From Bacteroidales bacterium (GTDB taxonomy: Bacteria > Bacteroidota > Bacteroidia > Bacteroidales > UBA3824), in NCBI GenBank assembly GCA_017535325.1, contig JAFXUC010000024.1, positions 62,001 to 126,000 of the forward strand: 64,000 nucleotides of DNA, written 5' to 3'. The notes beneath the pieces are model-generated. The model searched no databases, was not told the DNA's origin, and saw only the letters and a list, made by a program, of their open reading frames with translations. The translations under genes and the position numbers were made by a program. Numbering within the stretch: position 1 is the stretch's first letter; every line of letters starts with the position of its first letter. Below are positions 1 to 15,209 of the stretch, in pieces.

Positions 1-696
1 TACAAAAGAATTTGCAAATCTTATCCAATCAATTTCGGGATAAGCCACATTGTGCGCGTTGAAATTACCCGTCGCACCGCCAAACTTAGCCGAATAAGGC
101 ACTAATTTCAAAAGTCCCAACTGATTATGAAGCCTTTCAACATACACTTCAATCTCTTTTCCGAGTCTCGTAGGACTTGCCGGCTGACCATGTGTACGTG
201 CAAGCATCGGAATATCAGCCCATTCGCCCGCTTTGTGGTAAAGTTGCAAGATAACGTTATCAAGTAAAGGATAATATACATTCGTTATTGCAGCCTGCAA
301 AGCATAAGGAATTGAAGTGTTGTTAATATCCTGCGAAGTAAGTCCAAAATGTATAAAGGACTTGTACTGAGGTATATTAAGCGCGTCAAATTTTTCCCTC
401 AAAAAATACTCAACCGCTTTAACGTCGTGGTTTGTGGTCTTTTCGATTTCCTTGATTCTCAGAGCATCCTCTTGTGAGAACCTTCTGTAAATTCCACGCA
501 AGGGCTTAAACATTTGTCTGTCAAAACCTTGCAGTTGCGGTAAAGGGATTTCGCACAGAGCGACAAAATACTCCACTTCTACCAAAACCCTATATTTAAT
601 AAGCCCGAATTCAGAAAAATATTCCGCTAACTCGGCGGTTTTACCCCGATAGCGTCCGTCAACAGGTGAAACGGCTGTCAAATCTGTTAATTCCAT
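1..696 (-). CDS. purB: Adenylosuccinate lyase, N-terminal part (runs off left edge)
   Basis: Adenylosuccinate lyase acts twice in purine synthesis: it splits SAICAR to AICAR and adenylosuccinate to AMP, releasing fumarate. The 232 visible codons begin MELTDLTAVSPVDGRY, the usual N-terminus of the E. coli-type enzyme, and include the T/S-rich segments TTNHDVKAVEY and HFGLTSQDINNT plus LARTHGQPASPT, which carry the substrate-binding and general-acid histidines of the family. The C-terminal half with the flexible signature loop is outside the window. A perfect -7 box at 715-722 lies just upstream, so the gene probably has its own promoter. The identification is secure; only the missing 3' part cannot be checked. 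Confidence 0.95.
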   Translation of the reverse strand, partial: MELTDLTAVSPVDGRYRGKTAELAEYFSEFGLIKYRVLVEVEYFVALCEIPLPQLQGFDRQMFKPLRGIYRRFSQEDALRIKEIEKTTNHDVKAVEYFLREKFDALNIPQYKSFIHFGLTSQDINNTSIPYALQAAITNVYYPLLDNVILQLYHKAGEWADIPMLARTHGQPASPTRLGKEIEVYVERLHNQLGLLKLVPYSAKFGGATGNFNAHNVAYPEIDWIRFANSFV

Positions 697-714
697 CGTT
701 AAAAATTGTTTGCG

Positions 715-722
715 CAAAATTA
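715..722 (-). promoter_or_regulatory. -7 box of purB
   Basis: Minus-strand TAATTTTG fits the Bacteroidota -7 consensus TAnnTTTG and lies about 20 nt before the purB start codon. No clear TTG -33 element was identified. Confidence 0.5.
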
Positions 723-751
723 TAAAAAAATCTTCAAACAAAAAAATTTTT

Positions 752-1402
752 TTACTTCTGCACATCAAATCTCAAACCGTTCCATTTCAAGACAACGCTT
801 TTAGTTTTGCCGTTTTTTTCATAAACAACAGCAGTTATGTCCTTGCCAACACGCGGAAGTGAGTATGTTACAACGCCTTCGCCTGCATCAATATCCACGC
901 CCATATCGTGCCAGTTGATATAACAAAGTTTGTGCGTAGAATTGTTGTAAACGTGAAAAAACACGCCGGTAAATTCAGTTTGAACCGGTTTTCCGTTTTG
1001 AAACACCTGCACCGATTCACCGACGACCTTGTGTTTTGAGTCGGAAGAGTTCCAATAACACATTTCGGTAATGGTTTTAGAACCGTCCTCAGGGAAATTG
1101 CATTCAAAACTTACGAAGCCGTTTTTAGCGTCAACGGTTACTTTTTCGTTTTTTTCGGGGGTGTTTTTTTGATGACGTTCCCACATTTCGGACAACGCGC
1201 CGTAATGTTCGTCTTCCGGCTCAGTAAGCAGCGTTCTTACAAAGTCGTTGATGCCGGGCTTTTGACCGCTGAAAGTTACCGTCAAAGCGTATGCGGCGGT
1301 TTCCGGGTCATCTTCGTCGGCGTAAGGGTTGTTTTGCGCCGAAGCACACAAGCCCGTAAAAAGCATTGCGGCTATACAAACCGCTGATTTAAAAAATTTC
1401 AT
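752..1402 (-). CDS. Secreted protein of unknown function
   Basis: I do not recognise this 216-aa protein. Residues 1-23 form a clear signal peptide (basic start, hydrophobic core, CASAQ cleavage region), so it should be exported to the periplasm or cell surface. The mature part is mostly beta-prone, with alternating hydrophobic strands and an acidic stretch near residues 26-35. No lipobox, catalytic motif or repeat is visible. It begins 24 nt after the stop of the upstream Rpn-type nuclease gene, so the two may be co-transcribed, but there is no functional link in the sequence. Confidence 0.75.
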   Translation of the reverse strand: MKFFKSAVCIAAMLFTGLCASAQNNPYADEDDPETAAYALTVTFSGQKPGINDFVRTLLTEPEDEHYGALSEMWERHQKNTPEKNEKVTVDAKNGFVSFECNFPEDGSKTITEMCYWNSSDSKHKVVGESVQVFQNGKPVQTEFTGVFFHVYNNSTHKLCYINWHDMGVDIDAGEGVVTYSLPRVGKDITAVVYEKNGKTKSVVLKWNGLRFDVQK

Positions 1403-1426
1403 AGCAGTAAAATTTTTAATGTTATT

Positions 1427-2308
1427 TTATACTGTTTCAATTTCTTCGGGGGAAAGCCCGGAAATTTCACAAATATCCTCAACAGAATAACCTTTGCGTT
1501 TCATTTTAACAGCCATTTCAAAGGCTTTTTGTTTCTCGCCTTTTTCGATACCTATTTTCGCGCCTTCGGCACGACCTTCTTCACGGCCTTCCATTCGTTC
1601 TCTTTCGAGAGAGGATTTTTCAGTGCTGACATTAAGCCAATAAAGATTGTATGCAAGCAACTCGCTGTCCGTAAAGGCAGAACGTCTGACAATCTCCAAT
1701 GCCTCTGATGTGTCTTTGTTTGTCAACAATTCGGGGTCGGCATCGTCGGTTTTTTCGTCAATTTCGGTCAGGAATTTCAGCCAAAGATTGTGCATTGTTT
1801 TTTCTGCACGGTTCTGAGGCTTAAAATTCGGTAAAACAATAAACACCATTGAAAGGTCTGTATGACGGTCGTTGGTGTGGTTTTTGTTGGATAGGTAATA
1901 CTCTTGTATATATTCTGTGCCATATTCAGGAAAAGCCGCTTCGTCGTTTACCAAGCACAAGGCGTATACATCGTTTAATTCGCCAAATGCCTTACCTTTA
2001 TTTAACTGTTTGGTGTACATTGACGCGGCGTTAAACAACGTGCGCTGAAAAAATTCAGTATTCCAAATCGACTGCATTTCAACGATAAAATGGCGGTTAT
2101 AGTTATCAACACAAAGCACGTCAACAATAGAATATTTTTTGCCCGGATTTTCGGGTACGTTTTCCGGCGAAAGGTATTCAACGGTTTTTATTTCCATGCC
2201 TTCCGGCAACGGCAAAAGGGCGTTCAAAAGACTCAAAACGAGGTTTGGATGCTCGCCGAAGACTTTTTTGAACGTTAAATCCGCTTTCGGGTCAAGATAT
2301 TTCGACAT
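1427..2308 (-). CDS. Rpn-type PD-(D/E)XK nuclease / putative transposase (copy A)
   Basis: This 293-aa protein belongs to the Rpn / PDDEXK_2 family, whose E. coli members are DNA endonucleases that promote recombination and take part in phage defence. The N-terminus has the family signature DPKADLTFKKVFG. Candidate catalytic residues are D63 (IVDV) and E77-x-Q79 (VEMQ), with Q at the position often occupied by lysine. The C-terminus has a charged G/E/R-rich linker (ERMEGREEGRAEG) and then a small helical domain (GYSVEDICEISGLSPEEIE). I chose the start at MSKYLDP rather than the ATG three codons upstream because two other paralogues start at the equivalent position. The promoter box is at 2337-2344. 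Native role here is not known. Confidence 0.85.
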   Translation of the reverse strand: MSKYLDPKADLTFKKVFGEHPNLVLSLLNALLPLPEGMEIKTVEYLSPENVPENPGKKYSIVDVLCVDNYNRHFIVEMQSIWNTEFFQRTLFNAASMYTKQLNKGKAFGELNDVYALCLVNDEAAFPEYGTEYIQEYYLSNKNHTNDRHTDLSMVFIVLPNFKPQNRAEKTMHNLWLKFLTEIDEKTDDADPELLTNKDTSEALEIVRRSAFTDSELLAYNLYWLNVSTEKSSLERERMEGREEGRAEGAKIGIEKGEKQKAFEMAVKMKRKGYSVEDICEISGLSPEEIETV

Positions 2309-2336
2309 AATTTGCAAGAATTAAAAGTTTCAAGCG

Positions 2337-2344
2337 CAAAGTTA
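2337..2344 (-). promoter_or_regulatory. -7 box of Rpn-type gene A
   Basis: Minus-strand TAACTTTG matches TAnnTTTG exactly, about 28 nt before the chosen start codon. Confidence 0.55.
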
Positions 2345-2370
2345 GGATATTTTTTCGCAATTACAAACAA

Positions 2371-2398
2371 AAAACGGGCGAAAAATAATTTCCGCCCG
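2371..2398 (-). terminator. Rho-independent terminator after lipoprotein A
   Basis: On the minus strand the arms CGGGCG (2393-2398 side) and CGCCCG (2375-2380 side) form a GC-rich hairpin followed by a T-run. It lies about 30 nt after the lipoprotein A stop. The same hairpin follows lipoprotein B at 6950-6975, so it belongs to the duplicated module. Confidence 0.75.
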
Positions 2399-2426
2399 AT
2401 ACATTTTTTTTACAGAATAGTAATTT

Positions 2427-3692
2427 CTACTGCTTAGCACGAACAAAACGAACGGGTATAGGCTGATTTTGCATACGATAATCTTTTATCCAAGAGAACT
2501 GATTAGTCCAACAATAAACATAGTCCCAATTAGTACCAGTTGCACTGCGTGTCCATAAGTTGGCAGAAGTTTCATTGCCCTGATACAATTTCATCTGTGC
2601 GCCAGAACCATTTGGATTGACAAAATAGTTTGTAGTTGAATTATATAGGGATGCTAATTCCTGAAATTCGGGCTCAGAAGGAACTAATGCTCCTTGGTTA
2701 GTTGCTGCTGTCAATGCTGCTGACCTTAAAATGCTATTGCTGTAATTTGACATATACCAATATACACTTGTTCCAAGATCAACGTAATCTGTAGGGACGG
2801 TTATATCGCATGAAGCTGTAAAGTTGCCGTCCTCTGTTGTTGCAACGATAGTAACTTTACCTGTTCCCGTTATCAAAATCTCATTGTCTTCATTTATTGT
2901 CGCATTGTCTGTGGTACACGACCAAGTAACGTTTTTATTTGTTGCATTTTCAGGTGCTACGATTGCTGTAAGTGTAAACGCATCGTTGCCCCAAACTTTG
3001 GTTGTCGGCGGATTGTTAATTGTTACGCCGGTAACAGCCTTGCCTATTGTGTAAAGTTTGCATGGCTCAACGGTTTTGCCTTCAACTTGTGTAGAAATAG
3101 GGAAAACATAATAATTGCCTTGCGTAAAACTTGAAACATTTCCGATTGTCATTTCTTTTGCTCTCTCTACATAAACGTAGAAATTTTGGTCAACCAATTC
3201 AAGTTCGTCAGCACTTGAAGCAAAACTTGTTTTATACGTATGTGCGCAGTTGTTAAGCAAATCATTGAAATCCTCGTCTGTGGTTCTGCCGTCGCCTTTG
3301 GTCTGCGAAAATTCACCTTGCAAAGTAATGCTGCCGTTTTCAAAATCATCAACTTTGTCTTCCGGAACTGATAATTTACCCGAAAACCTGTAACCGTCCT
3401 CATTTATCAAATCCAATGTGCCGCTGATGTCGTTATTGTCCGCACAGGTTACAGATAATTTGACGGTTTCAATATCTGCTGCGTCGAAAGAAATTGTACC
3501 GCCGTCATTAGAAAACGTCACCTTGGAAATCAAATTTTTGTCGGCGTTTTTGACTTTTACCGAAACAGGCACTTCAACCATGCCGTTTTTGTTTTCAACG
3601 TTTTTCTGTTCGTTGTTTTCGTCTTTGCTGCAAGATGCCCAAAGCAAAACTGCTGCCGCAAAGGGCAGAATTTTTACAAAACTCTTCTTCAT
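2427..3692 (-). CDS. Lipoprotein with Ig-like repeat and FISUMP-like C-terminal domain (copy A)
   Basis: This is a predicted 421-aa surface lipoprotein. A signal peptide ends in the lipobox WASC, followed by an acidic spacer (SKDENNEQ). The middle is beta-rich and diverges from copy B. A bacterial Ig-like (Big_2-type) segment near residues 220-300 has the phrase TLTAIVAPENATNKNVTWS. The C-terminal ~120 aa contain TVPTDYVDLGTSVYW, VPSEPEF, NGSGA, WTRS and the end VRFVR, resembling the FISUMP (TIGR02145-like) C-type-lectin-like domain. The start is the ATG of MKKSFVK, with an AAGGAGG ribosome-binding site just before it; the longer in-frame ATG overlaps that site. It lies 17 nt after the small peptide gene and is presumably co-transcribed. 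Ligand unknown. Confidence 0.8.
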   Translation of the reverse strand: MKKSFVKILPFAAAVLLWASCSKDENNEQKNVENKNGMVEVPVSVKVKNADKNLISKVTFSNDGGTISFDAADIETVKLSVTCADNNDISGTLDLINEDGYRFSGKLSVPEDKVDDFENGSITLQGEFSQTKGDGRTTDEDFNDLLNNCAHTYKTSFASSADELELVDQNFYVYVERAKEMTIGNVSSFTQGNYYVFPISTQVEGKTVEPCKLYTIGKAVTGVTINNPPTTKVWGNDAFTLTAIVAPENATNKNVTWSCTTDNATINEDNEILITGTGKVTIVATTEDGNFTASCDITVPTDYVDLGTSVYWYMSNYSNSILRSAALTAATNQGALVPSEPEFQELASLYNSTTNYFVNPNGSGAQMKLYQGNETSANLWTRSATGTNWDYVYCWTNQFSWIKDYRMQNQPIPVRFVRAKQ

Positions 3693-3709
3693 TTTTTCAT
3701 CCTCCTTAT

Positions 3710-3901
3710 TTACCAATTGTTTTCATCGCGGCTGATTGTGCGGAAACTTGTTCCGAAAGTGCCGTTTACCTGACCGCTTGCCGCCAAAAGTTTCGGCGTG
3801 TCTTCGAGGTTGATTACCTCGAAATCGGGTTTAACGTACTTTTTCTTAATTACTTTCTGCGCCGGAAGTATAACCGGCTGATTTTTAACTTTGTCTGTCA
3901 T
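3710..3901 (-). CDS. Small leader-like peptide with variable tail (copy A)
   Basis: This 63-aa gene precedes lipoprotein A by 17 nt. Residues 1-43 are almost identical to the copy at 8291-8485 and contain KKKYVKPDFEVINLED and then KLLAASG. The last 20 residues (QVNGTFGTSF...) share nothing with copy B. A conserved first part and unrelated tail resembles a leader/core layout, but there is no modification enzyme next to it. Small Bacteroidota proteins with a similar Y-x-x-P-x-x-E ... LLAxSG pattern are familiar to me without a known function. There is no signal peptide or membrane segment. The gene sits behind a 190-nt structured leader. Confidence 0.7.
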   Translation of the reverse strand: MTDKVKNQPVILPAQKVIKKKYVKPDFEVINLEDTPKLLAASGQVNGTFGTSFRTISRDENNW

Positions 3902-4131
3902 AATTTATAAAAATTTTAAAATTATTTACAAAAACAAAAATCCCTTGCGGACAGAATTTGTTTTCTGTCTGCAAGGGATTGCATTATCTTTTGAGAAAGT
4001 AAAAAGTAAAGTACTTTTTACCCCCCCCGATTTACATTTTGTAAAGTTTGATATATGTTAGTTTCTTTCATTTCTGTTGTTAGATGTTTTGTTAACACCG
4101 CAAAGTAAAATTAAATAATTTTAACACGCAA
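3902..4131 (-). promoter_or_regulatory. Promoter and structured leader of peptide/lipoprotein A operon
   Basis: The 251-nt gap between the nuclease stop and the peptide start holds no gene. Reading the minus strand: a TTG (4129-4131), 20-nt spacer and TTACTTTG (4101-4108, one mismatch to TAnnTTTG) form a likely promoter. Next come a 6-bp hairpin (4031-4045), eight G (4021-4028), a perfect 10-bp hairpin with arms GTAAAAAGTA (3999-4021) and a 17-bp hairpin (3939-3980) with a T-rich tail. The start codon is 38 nt further on. The region is nearly identical to 8486-8716. Confidence 0.65.
3939..3980 (-). terminator. Attenuator-like hairpin in leader A
   Basis: Arms 3939-3955 and 3964-3980 pair over 17 bp with one G-U pair and an 8-nt loop. 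On the minus strand the stem is followed by TTTGTTTTTG. This is the form of an intrinsic terminator placed between the promoter and the peptide gene, so it could be an attenuator; alternatively it terminates transcripts of the upstream nuclease gene. Confidence 0.65.
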
Positions 4132-4152
4132 AAAATATGTGTTAAATTAAAA

Positions 4153-5139
4153 TTAAGATTCAAAAACTAAACGGCGAAGTTCCATGATTTGGTCAGCAGG
4201 GATTTTCAATACTTCAACGGCTTTGTCAAAATCAAACCCACTGGATATGAGGTTTTTAATGCTTTCAACAAGTTGTTCGGTGCGGCCTTTTTGGATACCT
4301 TTTTCGATGCCTTTCTTCTCTCCTTTCAAAAAACCGATTTCCTCGCCTTCTCTTAATTTTGTATTTAACTGTCCGTGATAGCACATAAAATTATGAAAAC
4401 TGTCATCGTATTGCAGTTGCTGCTGAGGAGTCAGCGCAGAATACGTGGCAAGTTGTTGAAGCCGCATAAACAACGGCTGCTCATCCGTAAAGGCTAAATT
4501 TGTTTCCATAGTTGACATATTTGATAAGTTAAATATCCATTTATCCACACTGTCTTTACAATCGGATTCTTTCATTTCCCGATAAAAAGGCATTTGTATT
4601 TTCCAATACTGAACCACATCGGTATCAACGTAATGTTTCGTTTTTTCCATAAATGCAAAATGAGACAGCGGTTGCGCATGTTTGGGATTTTTATCCTTGA
4701 AATTCATAAAGAAAACTCCGTAAATGTTTTTCAAATGATAATCCCAGTTTTTCTTTTTCTTCTTATTGTCAGCATCAAAGTATTCCAAATAGCCCTTGCT
4801 TTGCTGACGGGAAGCCGCTCTCGCCAAATAAAAAACTATACGTTCTGCAAAAAAATCCTGCGAATCGTTTTGCATTTCAATAACAAACTCTTCGTCCGTA
4901 TCCGTAACGCAATGCACGTCATAAACAACACGGCGGAGATCTTTGCTGGTTTCATCGGATTCTCCGTCGGTAATTTTTACACTTTTGATGTGTACTTTCG
5001 GGTCGTCTTTCTGTAACAAGTCGTTAAGAAAGCCGCGTGTTATTTCCTCGTCTTTAAAAATCCGCTTAAAACCGAAGTCAGTTGCAGGGTCAATATATTT
5101 AGGATGCCACTGTGAGCCGCTGTTTGCAGTTATGTCCAT
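4153..5139 (-). CDS. Rpn-type PD-(D/E)XK nuclease / putative transposase (copy B)
   Basis: This 328-aa Rpn / PDDEXK_2 family protein has the signature DPATDFGFKRIF near residue 18, candidate catalytic D74 (YDV) and E88-x-Q90 (IEMQ), a charged K/G/E linker near residues 265-285 and a C-terminal helical domain. The last 45 residues (from RTEQLVESIK) are homologous to the end of copy C at 8738, although the rest of the two proteins differs. I start at MDITAN because a -7-like box (CATCTTTG, 5158-5165) lies between it and the next upstream in-frame ATG. It stands directly upstream of leader/peptide/lipoprotein A. Likely DNA-binding or cleaving; role here unknown. Confidence 0.82.
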   Translation of the reverse strand: MDITANSGSQWHPKYIDPATDFGFKRIFKDEEITRGFLNDLLQKDDPKVHIKSVKITDGESDETSKDLRRVVYDVHCVTDTDEEFVIEMQNDSQDFFAERIVFYLARAASRQQSKGYLEYFDADNKKKKKNWDYHLKNIYGVFFMNFKDKNPKHAQPLSHFAFMEKTKHYVDTDVVQYWKIQMPFYREMKESDCKDSVDKWIFNLSNMSTMETNLAFTDEQPLFMRLQQLATYSALTPQQQLQYDDSFHNFMCYHGQLNTKLREGEEIGFLKGEKKGIEKGIQKGRTEQLVESIKNLISSGFDFDKAVEVLKIPADQIMELRRLVFES

Positions 5140-5253
5140 AACAATGTGATTTTTACGCAAAGATGAAAACTTTTTAGGAAAAAACAAAATTTTTTACAAT
5201 AATCATTTCTATTTTTTTTCACAAAAAAAACACTTTTTTCAAAAATTTTTCAA

Positions 5254-5261
5254 TACTTTTG
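5254..5261 (+). promoter_or_regulatory. -7 box of the GH35 gene
   Basis: TACTTTTG matches TAnnTTTG and lies about 30 nt before the start codon. No TTG is seen at the expected -33 spacing. Confidence 0.55.
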
Positions 5262-5292
5262 AGGTGTAAAAAAACAATTAAAAACACTAAAT

Positions 5293-6942
5293 ATGAAAAC
5301 ATTTTTTGCATTATTATTTTCTCTGCTTTCCGTTTTTTCCGCCGTTAAAACCACGGCTCAGAACCTGCCGAAAATCATCAGACACGGCAATGCGTATCAA
5401 TTGATTGTCGGCGGCAAACCGTTTTTAATGCGGGCGGGAGAACTCGGAAATTCCAACGCTTCAAGGGCTGAATATTTCAAACACAACGTAGTCCACAAAC
5501 TGAAAAGTCAGGAAATCAACACGGCTTTGATTCCGGTTTACTGGGATTTGATTGAGCCAAAGGAAGGAGAATTTGATTTTTCACTTGTTGACAGCATTAT
5601 AACAATCTCTCAGAGAAACGATTTGAAAATAGTCTTTCTGTGGTTCGGCGCATGGAAAAACTCGATGTCGTGCTACGCTCCCGCATGGGTAAAAAAAGAC
5701 GTTAAACGTTTTCCGAGAGCCGAAAGCAAGGACGGAATAAGACAGGAAATTCTTTCGCCGTACTCCTCAGAAAACCTCAACGCCGACAAAAAAGCGTTTT
5801 GCGCCCTGATGAAATTTATCAAAGAAAACGACAAAAAACAAACCGTCATAATGATTCAGGTCGAAAACGAAATCGCAATGCTGCCCGGTGCGCGTGATTA
5901 TTCCAAAACGGCAGACGCGGTTTACAAATCAACCGTTCCGGCAACACTGACGGACTATCTGTTAAAACACAAAAACGAACTTACCGACTCAATAAAAAAA
6001 TACTGGACAGGCAAAACTTCCGGCTCTTGGCAGGAATTGTTCGGAAAAACGGTCTACGGGGAAGAAATTTTCACGGCATGGAGTTACGCGGTTTATGTCA
6101 ACGAGATTACAAAAGCCGGAAAAGCGGTTTACGACCTTCCGATGTACGTCAACTGCGCCCTCAACCGTCCCGGCAAAAAGCCCGGCGAATATCCCTCCGG
6201 CGGTCCGCTGCCGCATTTGATTGATATTTGGAAAGCCGGCGCACCCGCTCTTGAAATGCTGAGTCCGGACATTTATTTCGGTGATTTCAAGAAATGGACT
6301 TCTGCCTACCGCCGCGCTGACAATCCGTTCTTTGTCCCTGAGCATCAATACGATGCCACGGCAGGCGCAAAGGCTTTGTACGCTTTCGGAGAATTGCACG
6401 CGCTCGGTTTTTCGCCATTTTCGGCAGAGACAAAGCAGGCACAGTTTATGCCGCCGGTTTTAGGCGAAACCATTGACCCAAAAAGCAAAAAAGGTATGCT
6501 CACCGAACTGCCTGCCGCCTACAATCTTATAGAATGTACGGAAGATTACATCATGGAATTTAACGGGACTGACAAAATGCGCGGCGTTCTCTTGGACTCT
6601 ATTAATCAACGCGATACGCTCATAATAGGCGGTTACGAAATTGTTGCAAAACACGATTTTACGCTCGGCTGGTCTCCACTCGCAAAACTTCCAGACTGGA
6701 ACACAGAAAGCGCAATAATAATCAACACTGCGCCAGAGGAGTTCTTATTAATAGGTACGGGCGTTGTTTTGAACTTTTTGCCCAAGGACAAGAAAAACGT
6801 CGGAATACTCGAAGTTCAAGAAATTGACTGCAACGGTAATGTTGTCCGCTATTTAAACGGCGACGAAACGCATCAGGGACGGCACGTCAGAATTCCTGAC
6901 GGAGAATGGTCAATACAAAAATTCAAACTTTACAAATATTGA
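5293..6942 (+). CDS. Secreted GH35-like beta-galactosidase (with DUF5597-type C-terminus)
   Basis: This 549-aa protein looks like a retaining glycoside hydrolase of family 35. A signal peptide (residues 1-23, ending TTAQ) sends it to the periplasm. The TIM barrel starts with GKPFLMRAGELGNSNAS and has ALIPVYWDLIEPKEGEFDF. The likely acid/base is the Glu of IQVENEIAM near residue 191 and the nucleophile the Glu of FFVPEHQ near residue 348. The C-terminal ~150 residues are beta-rich and fit the DUF5597-type extension of Bacteroidota GH35 proteins. Substrate is inferred to be a beta-galactoside of plant or host glycans; no polysaccharide-utilisation genes flank it. It sits between the two copies of the duplicated module, on the opposite strand. 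Confidence 0.82.
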   Translation: MKTFFALLFSLLSVFSAVKTTAQNLPKIIRHGNAYQLIVGGKPFLMRAGELGNSNASRAEYFKHNVVHKLKSQEINTALIPVYWDLIEPKEGEFDFSLVDSIITISQRNDLKIVFLWFGAWKNSMSCYAPAWVKKDVKRFPRAESKDGIRQEILSPYSSENLNADKKAFCALMKFIKENDKKQTVIMIQVENEIAMLPGARDYSKTADAVYKSTVPATLTDYLLKHKNELTDSIKKYWTGKTSGSWQELFGKTVYGEEIFTAWSYAVYVNEITKAGKAVYDLPMYVNCALNRPGKKPGEYPSGGPLPHLIDIWKAGAPALEMLSPDIYFGDFKKWTSAYRRADNPFFVPEHQYDATAGAKALYAFGELHALGFSPFSAETKQAQFMPPVLGETIDPKSKKGMLTELPAAYNLIECTEDYIMEFNGTDKMRGVLLDSINQRDTLIIGGYEIVAKHDFTLGWSPLAKLPDWNTESAIIINTAPEEFLLIGTGVVLNFLPKDKKNVGILEVQEIDCNGNVVRYLNGDETHQGRHVRIPDGEWSIQKFKLYKY

Positions 6943-6949
6943 GGAAAAA

Positions 6950-6975
6950 CGGGCGAAAAAATAATTTTCCGCCCG
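6950..6975. terminator. Bidirectional terminator between GH35 gene and lipoprotein B
   Basis: Arms CGGGCG (6950-6955) and CGCCCG (6970-6975) flank an A/T-rich loop, with a T-run on the plus-strand side and an A-run (T on minus) on the other. It can serve both converging genes and matches the hairpin at 2375-2398. Confidence 0.75.
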
Positions 6976-7002
6976 CCATATTTTTTACAGAATTAATAAT
7001 TT

Positions 7003-8271
7003 CTACAGAGTACGAACAAGCCGGACATAAAACATGTCGCTCCGCAAACTGTTGTTCCAATCCTGGAATGACGAGTAGAAGGTTATGCTCCTACCGCGCT
7101 CCTCGTCGAACTCCGTCCTCGACCAATAAGTCTCGAAGGACCGCAAAGTGATAGACGCTCCTGAACCGTTGTTATTGGTAAAGGTTGCATTAGAATAGGT
7201 AACATTTTGACTCGTCGACAAAAGGTTAAATTCGGCTTCGGAAGGAACATTCCAAGGCGATGGTATATCCGTAGGCTCTCCAAACTTATATGTACCATTT
7301 TCATCAGAGGTTTTCCAATAAACCCCCGTACCAAGGTCTACATAATCTGTCGGGACGGTGATGGTGCAAGTGGCTGTCGTGCCGTCCGCAGCGGTGGCTG
7401 TAATCGTAAAATTACCTGTTCCCTTTACGAACACGGAAAAAGTGTTGCCGTCAGAAGTGTACTCATTATTTTCATTACCGCCCTCATGACTCCACGTTAT
7501 GGTCTGAGCAGGAATAATAGTTGCCGTAACTGTTTGGGTGTTGTTGCCCCATACGATTGTCTTGGAAGTACCCCAATCAAGAGTCAGTGCTGCTTCAATC
7601 GTGTAAATTTGACCTGCAACAGTCGTATTTTTTGTTTTTCCGTCAGCAGTAACTTTTACATCCGCAGGAACGATACAAATTTTTCCTGATGCCAACGATA
7701 CTGCCGCACCGTCGTTCACGCTAACAGAAATTGCCGCAGATTTCTCGTTTTTAACAAAAGCAACATTTACGTTCATTACAATATTGTCCGAAAAATTGAA
7801 ATCGTTTCCTGATGCACTTATCGTAACAGGTTCTGACACTTCGTAAACATCTTTTGCAGCAGCATTAATGTTTTCATACGAACCTGTTACACCTGTCGGT
7901 GCTGTGCCGATAGTTGCAGTAACGGTTTTGCCGTCAAGGTCATAACTTGCATCAGCAGGATAAGACAATTCAACAGTAAAATCTACGGTTGCACCTGCCT
8001 CGGTGTGGAGTGTCGTTTCGCCGTGAATCTTTCCTCCATCGCCTGAAAATACCAAAGTTTCGTTGCCGTCGAAAGTTAAATCTACACCGTTTGCGCACGA
8101 AAGTTTGGAAATATCGGATTTTTTACTCAATGTTCCCGTTACGGTAACGGTTTTCTCTTGTTTTACAACGTTAACTGGTTCGTTGTTCTCGCTGTTTTCG
8201 TCTTTGCTGCAAGAAGTTGCAAACAAAACTGCCGCAGCAAGGGGCAGAACTCTAAAAAATACTTTCTTCAT
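7003..8271 (-). CDS. Lipoprotein with Ig-like repeat and FISUMP-like C-terminal domain (copy B)
   Basis: This 422-aa paralogue of the 2427-3692 protein has the same layout: signal peptide with lipobox FATSC, SKDENSENNEP spacer, beta-rich middle with an Ig-like segment (WGNNTQTVTATIIPAQTITWS), and a FISUMP-like end. Shared blocks are TVPTDYVDLGTGVYW, VPSEAEF, NNNGSGA, YWSR and the terminal VRLVR. The central ~200 residues differ strongly from copy A, while the signal peptide and block motifs are kept. The start is MKKVFFRVLP, preceded by AAGGAGG; a longer in-frame extension would run back through the peptide gene in another frame. It follows peptide B by 19 nt. Probably an outer-surface binding or adhesive lipoprotein. 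Confidence 0.8.
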   Translation of the reverse strand: MKKVFFRVLPLAAAVLFATSCSKDENSENNEPVNVVKQEKTVTVTGTLSKKSDISKLSCANGVDLTFDGNETLVFSGDGGKIHGETTLHTEAGATVDFTVELSYPADASYDLDGKTVTATIGTAPTGVTGSYENINAAAKDVYEVSEPVTISASGNDFNFSDNIVMNVNVAFVKNEKSAAISVSVNDGAAVSLASGKICIVPADVKVTADGKTKNTTVAGQIYTIEAALTLDWGTSKTIVWGNNTQTVTATIIPAQTITWSHEGGNENNEYTSDGNTFSVFVKGTGNFTITATAADGTTATCTITVPTDYVDLGTGVYWKTSDENGTYKFGEPTDIPSPWNVPSEAEFNLLSTSQNVTYSNATFTNNNGSGASITLRSFETYWSRTEFDEERGRSITFYSSFQDWNNSLRSDMFYVRLVRTL

Positions 8272-8290
8272 TTTTCTTTCCTCCTTTTTA

Positions 8291-8485
8291 TTAATCCCAT
8301 GAACCGTTAGAAAGTGCTCTACCCTGAGACATTGTACCACTGACACCTGCTGCAGGTCCGCTTGCCGCCAAAAGTTTAGGCGTGTCTTCGAGGTTGATAA
8401 CCTCAAAATCAGGTTTTACGTACTTTTTCTTAATTACTTTCTGCGCCGGAAGTATAACCGGCTGATTTTTAATATTGTCTGTCAT
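8291..8485 (-). CDS. Small leader-like peptide with variable tail (copy B)
   Basis: This 64-aa protein differs from copy A (3710-3901) by only two residues in its first 43 (MTDNIKN instead of MTDKVKN) and then departs completely after KLLAASG. Its tail is G/S-rich (PAAGVSGTMSQGRALSNGSWD is 21 residues, ending in SWD). The DNA of the shared part carries a handful of mostly silent changes, while the tail DNA cannot be aligned. The reading frame is therefore under constraint in the first part. There is no signal peptide. Function unknown; see the findings for the leader/core idea. Confidence 0.7.
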   Translation of the reverse strand: MTDNIKNQPVILPAQKVIKKKYVKPDFEVINLEDTPKLLAASGPAAGVSGTMSQGRALSNGSWD

Positions 8486-8716
8486 AATTTATAATGTTAA
8501 AAAAAATTATTTACAAAAACAAAAATCCCTTGCAGACAGAATGAAAATTTCTGTCTGCAAGGGATTGCACTATATTTAGGAAAAGTAAAAAGTAAAGTAC
8601 TTTTTACCCCCCCGATTTACATTTTGTAAAGTTTGATATATCTCAGTTTCTTTCATTTTTGTTGTTAGATGTTTTGTTAATGCCGCAAAGTAAAATTAAA
8701 TAATTTTAACACGCAA
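8486..8716 (-). promoter_or_regulatory. Promoter and structured leader of peptide/lipoprotein B operon
   Basis: The gene-free 252 nt repeat the arrangement at 3902-4131: TTG at 8714-8716, 20-nt spacer, TTACTTTG (8686-8693), hairpin 8616-8630, a G-run of seven (8607-8613), the 10-bp hairpin 8585-8607 and the 17-bp hairpin 8524-8566, then the peptide start. Spacings are kept almost to the base. Confidence 0.65.
8524..8566 (-). terminator. Attenuator-like hairpin in leader B
   Basis: Arms 8524-8540 and 8550-8566 pair perfectly over 17 bp around a 9-nt loop; on the minus strand a TTTTTGTTTTTG tail follows. The stem is conserved with leader A while the loop sequence and length differ. Confidence 0.65.
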
Positions 8717-8737
8717 AAAATATGTGTTAAATTAAAA

Positions 8738-9610
8738 TTAAGATTCAAAAGCCAAACGCCTGAGTTCGGGGATTTGGTCAATAGGAATTTCCAAAATCTT
8801 TACAACTTCATCAAAGTCAAAACCTTTGGAAATAAATTTTTTAATGCTTTCAACGAGTTGTTCGGTGCGGCCTTCGGCACGACCTTTCTCTCGACCCATA
8901 TTCTCCATGGTCATATCCCTGTCTTTGCGCAAAAAATCCATGTCCCAAAAACTGTCAAACTGTCGCTGCTCCTCTTCCGTAAGATTGCGGCAAAGTTCCA
9001 ACGCTTCTTTTACGTCCTCATTTTCCAAAAGGTCGTCCGTAACGTTCTCTTCGCCGGTTCTCGCATCAATGGAAGTAAGAAATTGCTGCCACAATTCCAA
9101 CAAAGTCTTTTGACCTTTGTTTTGCGGCACAAATTTAGGCAGTTCAACACACACTATCTCAATGCCTTGGATTACGCTGTTTGGATTGCCAACCTCAGAC
9201 ATTTTGTAATAGTGGTAGTTTTCGGCGGTATCTTTTTGATAGATGTCGTTAAGAATATTAACAGCGAAAACTCTTTTGAGTTTGTAATATCTTTCGCCTT
9301 TGTTATAAAGCGAACAGTAAACCTTTGAACTATTGTACATTACGCGGCGCAAGAAGTCTGACGACCAGCACATCTGCATCTCAACGATAAAATAGTCGTC
9401 ATTCGTATCCTGACAACGCACATCAACAATATTGCTGCGCTTGCCGTCTGTCATAGGGATAATTTCTGACGGCAGGTACTCAACGTCCTTAATTTTATTT
9501 TCGCTGTTCTCCAATTTCAGTACTGCGTTCAACAGACTGATTGTAAGATTTTTATGAGAACCGAACACTTTCTTGAATACAACGTCGGTCTTAGGGTCGT
9601 AATATTGCAT
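8738..9610 (-). CDS. Rpn-type PD-(D/E)XK nuclease / putative transposase (copy C)
   Basis: This 290-aa Rpn / PDDEXK_2 protein starts MQYYDPKTDVVFKKVFG, with candidate catalytic D63 (IVDV) and E77-x-Q79 (VEMQ), so its N-terminal half is closer to copy A (1427) than to copy B (4153). Its last 45 residues, in contrast, match copy B (RTEQLVESIKK...). The protein therefore looks like a mosaic: a copy A-type nuclease domain with a copy B-type tail. An internal ATG run (MTMENMGREKG) just before the C-terminal domain could start a short C-terminal product, as described for E. coli rpn genes, but nothing here proves it. It has its own promoter box at 9638-9645 and lies upstream of leader/peptide/lipoprotein B. 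Confidence 0.85.
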   Translation of the reverse strand: MQYYDPKTDVVFKKVFGSHKNLTISLLNAVLKLENSENKIKDVEYLPSEIIPMTDGKRSNIVDVRCQDTNDDYFIVEMQMCWSSDFLRRVMYNSSKVYCSLYNKGERYYKLKRVFAVNILNDIYQKDTAENYHYYKMSEVGNPNSVIQGIEIVCVELPKFVPQNKGQKTLLELWQQFLTSIDARTGEENVTDDLLENEDVKEALELCRNLTEEEQRQFDSFWDMDFLRKDRDMTMENMGREKGRAEGRTEQLVESIKKFISKGFDFDEVVKILEIPIDQIPELRRLAFES

Positions 9611-9637
9611 AATTTTTATGTTCTAAATTTTCAGCCG

Positions 9638-9645
9638 CAAAGTTA
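9638..9645 (-). promoter_or_regulatory. -7 box of Rpn-type gene C
   Basis: Minus-strand TAACTTTG, a full match to TAnnTTTG, about 28 nt before the start codon. Confidence 0.55.
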
Positions 9646-9701
9646 TGGTATTTTTTTGCAAAAAGCAAACAAAAATTTCGTTTGTTTCAAAAATTTTAAA
9701 T

Positions 9702-13470: not shown

Positions 13471-15036
13471 TTACTTGTCTTCTTCCGCCACCCAATCGAC
13501 AATGTTTTTTTCCGCGCTCGAAAAACTAACGCCTATTTTGATCACTTTGCGATTGTCCATCTTGAAACGTCCGGCGTAGTTTTTAGTGTTGATTTGGGCG
13601 AGGGCGGTCTGGGCGTCTTGGTCTATCTTAAATTCAAATAAATAGACATATTCCTTGTTGACAAGGATGCTGTCGGCGCGGCCTTTGGAGAAGTGAGCCT
13701 CGCTTATTATAAATTCGCCCAAAATGGTGAACACCAAATAGATGACGTTCTGAAAATCGCGCTCAATGAGCCTCAGACTTTTGTCGGTGGCGTAGGGTAG
13801 GGAGCAGAAGAGGGCTTTCATGCGTTCGATGACGCTCTCAATGTCGCCTTTGTGAAAATCATAAAGGAAATCGGAGTAGTTGAAGCCGTTTTGTTCGCTT
13901 GGCGCACCGTAAAACTCCTCGGCAAGCGAGTTAAAAAAACTCGTTTCAACCTCGTAATCGGGGAATCCGAGCACATACAGGCGACCTTCCTCTATGAACG
14001 ATTTTATTGTGAGGTAGCCCGAATAATACAAAAGTGGCACAATGTCTGTTCTGAACTCGTCGTCCTTGTAGTCCTTGAGTTTGTCTTTCGGATATTCGAT
14101 GTCGCCTTTGAGACTTGTGATGTCGAAGGTGGAGTTTTTGATTCTTTTGATTAAAACGGTTGGTGTTCCCGTTTCATACCAATAGTTTTGTAAGTCAGTC
14201 TTTTTCAGAGCGTTAAAAAGACTTACGGGGTTTAAAACCTTGATACCGTCCTCGTGAAACAAGTAACAATCATACCATTTGTTGAGCAACGCGACCATCT
14301 GCTCGGTGGATATTTTTTTCTTGTCGGCGAAGGCTTTGATTTCGTCCGAAAAATATGACATCATTTCTTCATGTGTAATGCCGCAAATTGCCGAAAAATT
14401 GGGATCCAAAGATATGTCGTCGGGTTGGTTGTTACCGCTGAAAATGGATGTCTTGGCAAACTTGGTGACACCTGTCAGGAACACGAACCGGAAATATTCG
14501 TCGTAGTCTTTCAATACCGTAAAAAAACCACGGTATATCTCCTTGTCTTCTTCAAGATGTTTACTGTTGATCAGAGGGTTGTCGTATTCGTCCACTATCA
14601 TTACCGTCTGAAGCCCCGTTTTGTCGAAGACCTCCTCCACGTCGCATTGAAGTCTGATGCCAAGGTCGTCTTCGTTGTCGTTTGTTGCGCCCAAGTATTG
14701 TTTTTCGTATTTTGAGAGGCACTTTGACAGACGTTTGTAAAGGGTTCCCTGTTTGGCAAAATTGCCGCTTGCCAATGGAATGTGCAGCACTGGATATTTA
14801 ATCCAATTTTTCTCCAATTCGCAAATTTTGAGACCTTCGAAAAGTTCCTTCTTGCCCTCAAAAAATGAGCGCAACGTAGTGCATAACAGGCTTTTACCAA
14901 ACCTGCGCGGACGGGCGAGAAAGTATGTTTTGCCGTGGTAAGCAAGATTATACACATAATCCGTCTTGTCCACATAGACACATTTGCTGTTTCTCAAATC
15001 CTCGAAACTCTGTATGCCAATAGGGTAGTTCAACAT
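13471..15036 (-). CDS. AAA-ATPase-like / PD-(D/E)XK nuclease protein (DUF1703 type)
   Basis: This 521-aa protein has the two-domain layout common in Bacteroidota: an AAA-ATPase-like domain (starting MLNYPIGIQSFEDLRN) with a P-loop ARPRRFGKS at residues 41-49 and a Walker B-like VMIVDEYDNP, then a C-terminal PD-(D/E)XK nuclease-like domain (ADSILVNKEYVYLFEFKID, with D and E-F-K). Function is unproven; the family is frequent in mobile and defence contexts. I start at MLNYPIG because a perfect -7 box lies between it and the next upstream ATG. It stands alone between panB and the small-RNA candidate. Confidence 0.82.
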   Translation of the reverse strand: MLNYPIGIQSFEDLRNSKCVYVDKTDYVYNLAYHGKTYFLARPRRFGKSLLCTTLRSFFEGKKELFEGLKICELEKNWIKYPVLHIPLASGNFAKQGTLYKRLSKCLSKYEKQYLGATNDNEDDLGIRLQCDVEEVFDKTGLQTVMIVDEYDNPLINSKHLEEDKEIYRGFFTVLKDYDEYFRFVFLTGVTKFAKTSIFSGNNQPDDISLDPNFSAICGITHEEMMSYFSDEIKAFADKKKISTEQMVALLNKWYDCYLFHEDGIKVLNPVSLFNALKKTDLQNYWYETGTPTVLIKRIKNSTFDITSLKGDIEYPKDKLKDYKDDEFRTDIVPLLYYSGYLTIKSFIEEGRLYVLGFPDYEVETSFFNSLAEEFYGAPSEQNGFNYSDFLYDFHKGDIESVIERMKALFCSLPYATDKSLRLIERDFQNVIYLVFTILGEFIISEAHFSKGRADSILVNKEYVYLFEFKIDQDAQTALAQINTKNYAGRFKMDNRKVIKIGVSFSSAEKNIVDWVAEEDK

Positions 15037-15060
15037 ATTATTTTCGGTTTTAATCCACTG

Positions 15061-15068
15061 CAAATATA
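15061..15068 (-). promoter_or_regulatory. -7 box of the AAA-ATPase/nuclease gene
   Basis: Minus-strand TATATTTG fits TAnnTTTG and lies 24 nt before ATG 15036, downstream of the alternative ATG at 15084, which therefore cannot be on this transcript. TTG occurs 17 nt upstream of the box. Confidence 0.6.
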
Positions 15069-15209
15069 GATATTTTTTTCTCATTCAAAAAAACTTTTTC
15101 ACCTTTATGGTGTCTGTCTTGTGATAAACAGGGCGGGCTTTCTTATAGGCTTCATTATGCGGAACGAGATATTTTTTTAATCTTTTAACATTTATTTGCT
15201 ATTTAGCCG

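Follow-up and report, generated by a model that had tools for sequence, protein, structure and literature searches.

Repeat-containing leader ORFs followed by terminators: candidate phase-variable attenuators of surface-protein genes in a genus of ruminant-gut Bacteroidales

The window analyzed here, a 64,000-nucleotide stretch of a Bacteroidales bacterium assembly (GCA_017535325.1, contig JAFXUC010000024.1), carries on its minus strand two modules of identical order, each made of an Rpn-family nuclease gene, a leader of about 250 nt, a gene for a peptide of 63–64 aa, a lipoprotein gene and a 3' hairpin (Table 1). The original prediction, which described a duplicated four-part module whose leader is nearly identical in the two copies while the flanking genes have diverged, was confirmed. 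Nucleotide identity between the copies is 65.6% in the nuclease body, 77.5% in its last 45 codons (dS 0.88), 93.5% in the leader, 93.8% in the first 43 codons of the peptide (dS 0.26, dN 0.02), 66% in the peptide tail, 78% in the first 35 codons of the lipoprotein and 62–64% in the rest of it, so that the leader is indeed less diverged than the flanking genes, although the low-divergence block also includes the conserved half of the peptide. Two corrections are nonetheless needed. First, the leader, taken to be a structured non-coding element, is not simply non-coding, as it holds a mini-ORF with a G7 or G8 tract followed by a terminator. Second, the assignment of the lipoproteins to FISUMP is weak, because the two lipoproteins of the window do not reach TIGR02145 at E 0.1 and lipoproteins of sister genomes hit this model only below its cut-off, whereas one window copy has a Big_2 domain. 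The nuclease, on the contrary, belongs to the Rpn family: in profile searches against PF12784/TIGR01784 the window nucleases scored above the curated cut-offs over the full domain, with 102–135 bits (cut-off 27.4) and 73–117 bits (cut-off 52.1). These are full-length members of the family to which E. coli RpnA belongs, with a variable C-terminal helical domain, and the last 45 codons shared by the two copies fall in that region.

Table 1. Features of the two modules, in coordinates of the window
Module	Feature	Position	Strand	Description
1	Nuclease gene	4153..5139	-	Rpn-family PD-(D/E)XK nuclease (PF12784/TIGR01784), ending just upstream of the leader
1	Leader	3902..4152	-	
1	Promoter-like boxes	4101..4132	-	Bacteroidales-type, TTTG..20 nt..TTACTTTG; -7-like box 37 nt before the mini-ORF ATG
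1	Leader mini-ORF	4018..4071	-	MKETNIYQTLQNVNRGG*, present (short, predicted OFF) frame; stop 40 nt before the hairpin
1	G8 tract (SSR)	4021..4028	-	Followed directly by TAA; ortholog in a sister genome has G11
1	Hairpin	3993..4028	-	Starts in the G tract; possible RNA-polymerase pause or slowing element
1	Intrinsic terminator	3939..3980	-	Hairpin followed by T run, between mini-ORF and peptide gene; covaries across 28 leaders
1	Peptide gene	3710..3901	-	63 aa, KKKYVKPDFEVINLEDTPKLLAASG core and variable tail; no known family
1	Lipoprotein gene	2427..3692	-	Surface lipoprotein with Big_2 domain and FISUMP/Lcl_C-like C-terminus
1	3' hairpin	2371..2400 (about)	-	Terminator-like, shared with module 2
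2	Nuclease gene	8738..9610	-	Rpn-family nuclease
2	Leader	8486..8737	-	
2	Leader mini-ORF	8576..8656	-	MKETEIYQTLQNVNRGGKKYFTFYFS*, longer frame; stop 12 nt before the hairpin
2	G7 tract (SSR)	8607..8613	-	
2	Intrinsic terminator	8524..8566	-	Hairpin followed by T run
2	Peptide gene	8291..8485	-	64 aa
2	Lipoprotein gene	7003..8271	-	Surface lipoprotein (Lcl_C-like C-terminus, weak)
2	3' hairpin	6950..6978	-	Terminator-like

Whether the leader is confined to these two places had been named beforehand as the observation that would reduce the finding to a single recent duplication, and this turned out not to be the case. Pattern searches of the 3.72-Mb assembly returned about 20 leader or peptide matches, many of them at contig ends, as expected for repeats that break assembly, and further matches across the genus; named relatives are ruminant-gut Bacteroidales MAGs. 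The assembly holds at least 13 complete copies with poly-G or GCATC repeats, plus AACGC copies cut at contig ends. The peptide occurs in 16 of 18 genomes of the genus and in almost no other genus of the order. It has no Pfam or NCBIfam family, and structure prediction gave only a low-confidence model (mean pLDDT 64); the idea that it might be a RiPP precursor, suggested by YxxP and LLxxS motifs, was left aside because no modification enzyme is evident among the neighbors listed. No leader or peptide was found in the viral contigs searched, and hence no link to phages emerged. Similarly, no Rfam family reached its gathering threshold in positions 2300–9700 of the window.

When the DNA upstream of all peptide copies was read, every complete leader was found to have a promoter-like region, an ATG-started mini-ORF, a simple sequence repeat (SSR) within that ORF, and then a hairpin with a T run. 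The repeat is a G tract in one set, GCATC units in a second, and AACGC units in a third. In the window, the frame set by G8 in copy 1 and that set by G7 in copy 2 stop at different distances from the hairpin, while a third phase would read through the hairpin and stop after the T run. An ATG-to-SSR frame is open in 37 leaders, although translation itself was not shown; the ATG-to-SSR distance is fixed per family (43, 46, 31 and 28 nt in most members), and TAA follows the G tract in nearly all poly-G leaders. All 37 have at least one short frame and at least one frame ending near, in or past the hairpin, and 30 are assembled in the short phase, 4 near, 1 inside and 2 through. With random phases about 18 short ones would be expected (by hand calculation), which points to an OFF bias or, alternatively, to shared ancestry. 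Frame geometry alone, however, is weakly informative, as dinucleotide shuffling gave nearly the same result (short plus long frames in 18/18 leaders against 15.1 expected, P = 0.04), and openness through the hairpin was not above chance. Moreover, a synonymous/non-synonymous test of the mini-ORF showed no purifying selection on its amino acids.

Four other lines of evidence carry the argument. First, the repeats are almost confined to leaders. In this genome (GCATC)3 occurs at only 4 places and (AACGC)3 at 5, all of them leaders or cut leader halves, and 9 of 14 G tracts of 7 or more are leaders; the non-leader tracts set aside were a 16S rRNA-like one (C130; here and below, C and L labels designate individual contigs or loci), a ManA-like coding stretch (C109:59.9k), C3 and C88:33.9k, whereas contig C57 of this genome seems to have a classic coding G11 tract. 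Across the genus, GGGGGGGTAAAA was found at about 60 sites in 18/18 genomes against 2 for the reversed control, while in 291 genomes of other genera the figures were 111 against about 74 (counted by hand). Second, of the SSR sites chosen without looking for a terminator, 22/35 have one within 130 nt, against 4.5% of random positions, which were the only control used, and none of 30 sampled poly-G sites outside the genus has one; we therefore make no claim beyond the genus. Third, the hairpin covaries strongly, with 96.6% of cells paired, 11 of 18 pairs with double-sided changes, 0 of 500 shuffles as good, and slid controls below 50% paired. Fourth, SSR length differs in 6/9 ortholog pairs at ≥92% identity against 7/60 A/T runs (P = 0.0009). 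These comparisons are between sister species rather than strains, and rest on consensus sequences of metagenome-assembled genomes, without reads; relatedness among leaders also reduces the independence of the counts. Some of the differences, such as G8/G11 at copy 1 and 4/7 GCATC units at C133, keep the frame, but those of C117/L176 and L326/L335 do not.

The genes downstream of these leaders mostly encode secreted or surface proteins, including lipoproteins with Big_2 or FISUMP-like ends, BspA-type LRR_5 proteins (C15, L339, L342), a collagen-repeat lipoprotein (L353), a Listeria-Bacteroides-repeat protein (L326) and a T9SS-sorted protein (L340). C137 precedes what looks to us like an MBOAT acyltransferase, although this is a fragment without a family hit, and one odd case precedes a UvrD helicase (L346). 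The peptide is optional. We also considered that the terminator might close a separate small RNA or micropeptide gene, with the peptide and lipoprotein operon relying on its own promoter further downstream, as the leader does have its own promoter-like box and terminator, and the mini-ORF could be an independent micropeptide. This is very unlikely, however, because in almost all leaders only 23–53 nt separate the T run from the next start codon, with no good TAnnTTTG box there (the promoter consensus itself was not tested), because mini-ORF residues are not conserved as protein, and because the repeats recur almost only before surface genes. Expression of the downstream genes should then depend on read-through.

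Based on these results, the explanation that we consider likely is that the leader is a phase-variable transcription attenuator. In this view, transcription starts at the leader promoter and a short ORF is translated that contains a slippage-prone repeat (G7–G11, or GCATC or AACGC units). In one reading phase the ORF would stop about 30–60 nt before the intrinsic terminator, the hairpin would form, and the peptide and lipoprotein genes would be off. When slipped-strand mispairing shifts the frame, the ORF would be read to the edge of, into or through the hairpin, the ribosome would prevent it from folding, and transcription would continue into the surface gene, although a stop 12 nt before the hairpin, as in copy 2, may not suffice to open it. 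The anatomy, its recurrence, the hairpin covariation, the SSR length variation between orthologs and the absence of a clear second promoter box after the terminator are all seen directly in the sequences, whereas translation of the mini-ORF, terminator activity, switching in vivo and the ON/OFF assignment are our inference; there are no expression, termination or translation data. Used in front of many lipoproteins, LRR proteins and other secreted proteins, such a switch would give combinatorial surface variation.

Alternatively, attenuation might operate in a fixed frame, with the short peptide always ending at the TAA after the repeat and with RNA polymerase or ribosome slippage on the G tract yielding a constant fraction of read-through rather than heritable switching. 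The TAA after nearly all G7–G11 tracts, the ortholog length differences that are multiples of 3, and the 30/37 leaders in the short phase would be compatible with this possibility, and part of the length variation may indeed preserve one frame. Nonetheless, we regard this alternative as unlikely, since the pentanucleotide repeats GCATC and AACGC occupy the same place and are not typical transcriptional slippage sites, and since out-of-frame ortholog differences exist (C117/L176, L326/L335 and L191/C92).

The layout described here is that of the pil1/pil3 attenuator of Streptococcus gallolyticus. For pil1, Danne et al. 2014 (PMC3894217) showed that changes in a GCAGA repeat alter a leader peptide, that longer peptides raise transcription in a translation-dependent manner through a premature terminator, and that the distance of the stop codon predicts expression, with a short stop 39–49 nt before the hairpin giving low expression and one 4 nt before or inside it giving high expression. 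Both systems have a promoter, a leader-peptide ORF with a slippage-prone repeat, a premature intrinsic terminator and a surface-structure gene, and we therefore consider these leaders to work like the pil1 attenuator, although the effect of leader peptide length on downstream transcription was not measured here. What differs is the phylum, the presence of many loci per genome rather than two, the use of three repeat types including mononucleotide G tracts, the control of lipoproteins and LRR proteins rather than sortase pili, and the shorter repeats (4–13 units against the 22 GCAGA units of pil1). Our literature searches found only that work and one review of the same species for this mechanism, and no report of it outside S. 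gallolyticus or of its use on a whole surface repertoire. SSR contingency loci in coding regions of Neisseria, Haemophilus and Campylobacter share the frame switching of surface genes by slipped-strand mispairing of G tracts or short repeats, spread over many loci; here, however, the repeat lies in a separate leader ORF and would act on transcription termination, not inside the surface gene. The invertible promoters of Bacteroides likewise provide combinatorial ON/OFF control of surface genes in Bacteroidales, but by site-specific DNA inversion, whereas here the variable element is a repeat and no promoter inversion is needed. No inverted repeats of ≥25 nt bracket the promoter in the window, but as shorter ones were not sought, this does not settle whether an invertible promoter is present. 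A 2025 review (PMC11868660), in the parts that we searched, cites Bacteroides phase variation in terms of invertases or inversion.

The linkage of the nuclease, the other point on which the idea of a lone duplication had been made to depend, is also far above chance. PF12784 genes number 22 in this genome and lie within 3 kb of 8 of 20 leader or peptide loci (4% expected, P = 5e-7). Across the genus, a nuclease of the kinds searched ends within 300 nt upstream of 34 of 76 leaders, a set that includes some SSR sites without a detected terminator, and in 31 cases it lies on the same strand, with a spacing that depends on leader type. Tandem modules are present in L185. Close nucleases precede leaders of different types (87% aa identity between those of L184, type A1, and L237, type C; 89% between those of L179, type A3, and L353, type C), so the parts reassort between copies. 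The interpretation that a mobile or self-diversifying surface-protein cassette involving the nuclease lies behind the duplication is thus supported only in part: there is a system, but it was not recognized that the conserved logic of the leader is a repeat-containing mini-ORF plus terminator, which explains leader conservation better than mobility does, and a role of the nuclease in driving mobility or diversification was not supported. It could be argued that the leader is conserved only because it is an arm for recombination or gene conversion, that the nuclease drives the spread of the whole unit by single or repeated duplication, and that repeats and terminator are incidental. The low-divergence block flanked by dS values of 0.6–0.9, the nuclease adjacency and the reassortment would fit this reading, which we consider improbable. 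Leaders of unrelated sequence keep the same ATG-SSR-terminator order and often lack any nuclease or peptide, leaders at loci without a nuclease, which if conserved and functional would speak against such a scenario, being already seen in the sequence, and the hairpins covary, so the RNA structure is under selection. Recombination, by which modules are shuffled, can be true as well, but does not explain this anatomy. Rpn nucleases are reported as proteins of RecA-independent horizontal transfer (PMC5350276) and as intragenic toxin-antitoxin anti-phage proteins (PMC10327210), and a linkage to a surface-gene switch is not described for them in the literature consulted. Whether the nuclease promotes reassortment, serves phage defense or simply hitch-hikes is not decided by our data. 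A more far-reaching and only tentative possibility is that a whole genus runs its surface-protein repertoire through one switch design with several interchangeable repeat types, and that the adjacent nuclease actively promotes exchange of leader and surface-gene cassettes, joining stochastic ON/OFF switching with recombinational shuffling.

In the literature consulted, phase-variable attenuation rests on one species, S. gallolyticus. Finding the same logic in another phylum, at a dozen or more loci per genome and with different repeat types, would make it a general way to diversify surfaces. Because phase variation in Bacteroidales is described mainly as DNA inversion, our finding points to an overlooked SSR-based route in gut commensals. 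Furthermore, the switch state can be read directly from repeat length in metagenomic reads, so that host, phage or diet selection on surface variants becomes testable without cultivation.

In the same genome, a G11 tract was also seen near the N-terminus of a long secreted-protein-like ORF that is out of frame in the assembly, and this locus looks like a classic coding phase-variable gene. In several AACGC-type modules, as well as at contig ends, a GC-rich, palindrome-rich repeat (GGGGTTCACACCCCCGTCTATTATGTATCACCCC...) of about 200-280 nt sits between the terminator and the peptide gene, and is probably a dispersed repeat element. One peptide gene of this genome carries an internal TAA (LL*ASG) and is apparently broken.

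Positions of the additional features, by locus (L), contig (C) and genome (G)
Feature	Location	Positions
G11 tract	L232 (own genome C57:54456)	3457
GC-rich repeat	L055	140-400
GC-rich repeat	L056	110-430
GC-rich repeat	L170	
GC-rich repeat	L174	
Third PF12784 nuclease gene	window	1427-2317
AAA-ATPase-like gene	window	13471-15084
Shared last 45 nuclease codons	window	4153-4290 and 8738-8875
Peptide gene with internal TAA	L067 (own genome C52)	116-280
Two tandem modules	L185 (G016:C122)	1-5000

The window also contains a third PF12784 nuclease gene and an AAA-ATPase-like gene resembling the kind found beside another module (on contig C115), although we saw no leader of this type at either. The codons shared by the two nucleases fall in the region reported for E. 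coli Rpn as a separately translated C-terminal antitoxin (RpnS), and it is possible that the boundary of similarity is a domain-swap point. At L185, two nuclease-leader-peptide-lipoprotein modules lie in tandem, head to tail, and represent the clearest case of local module amplification.
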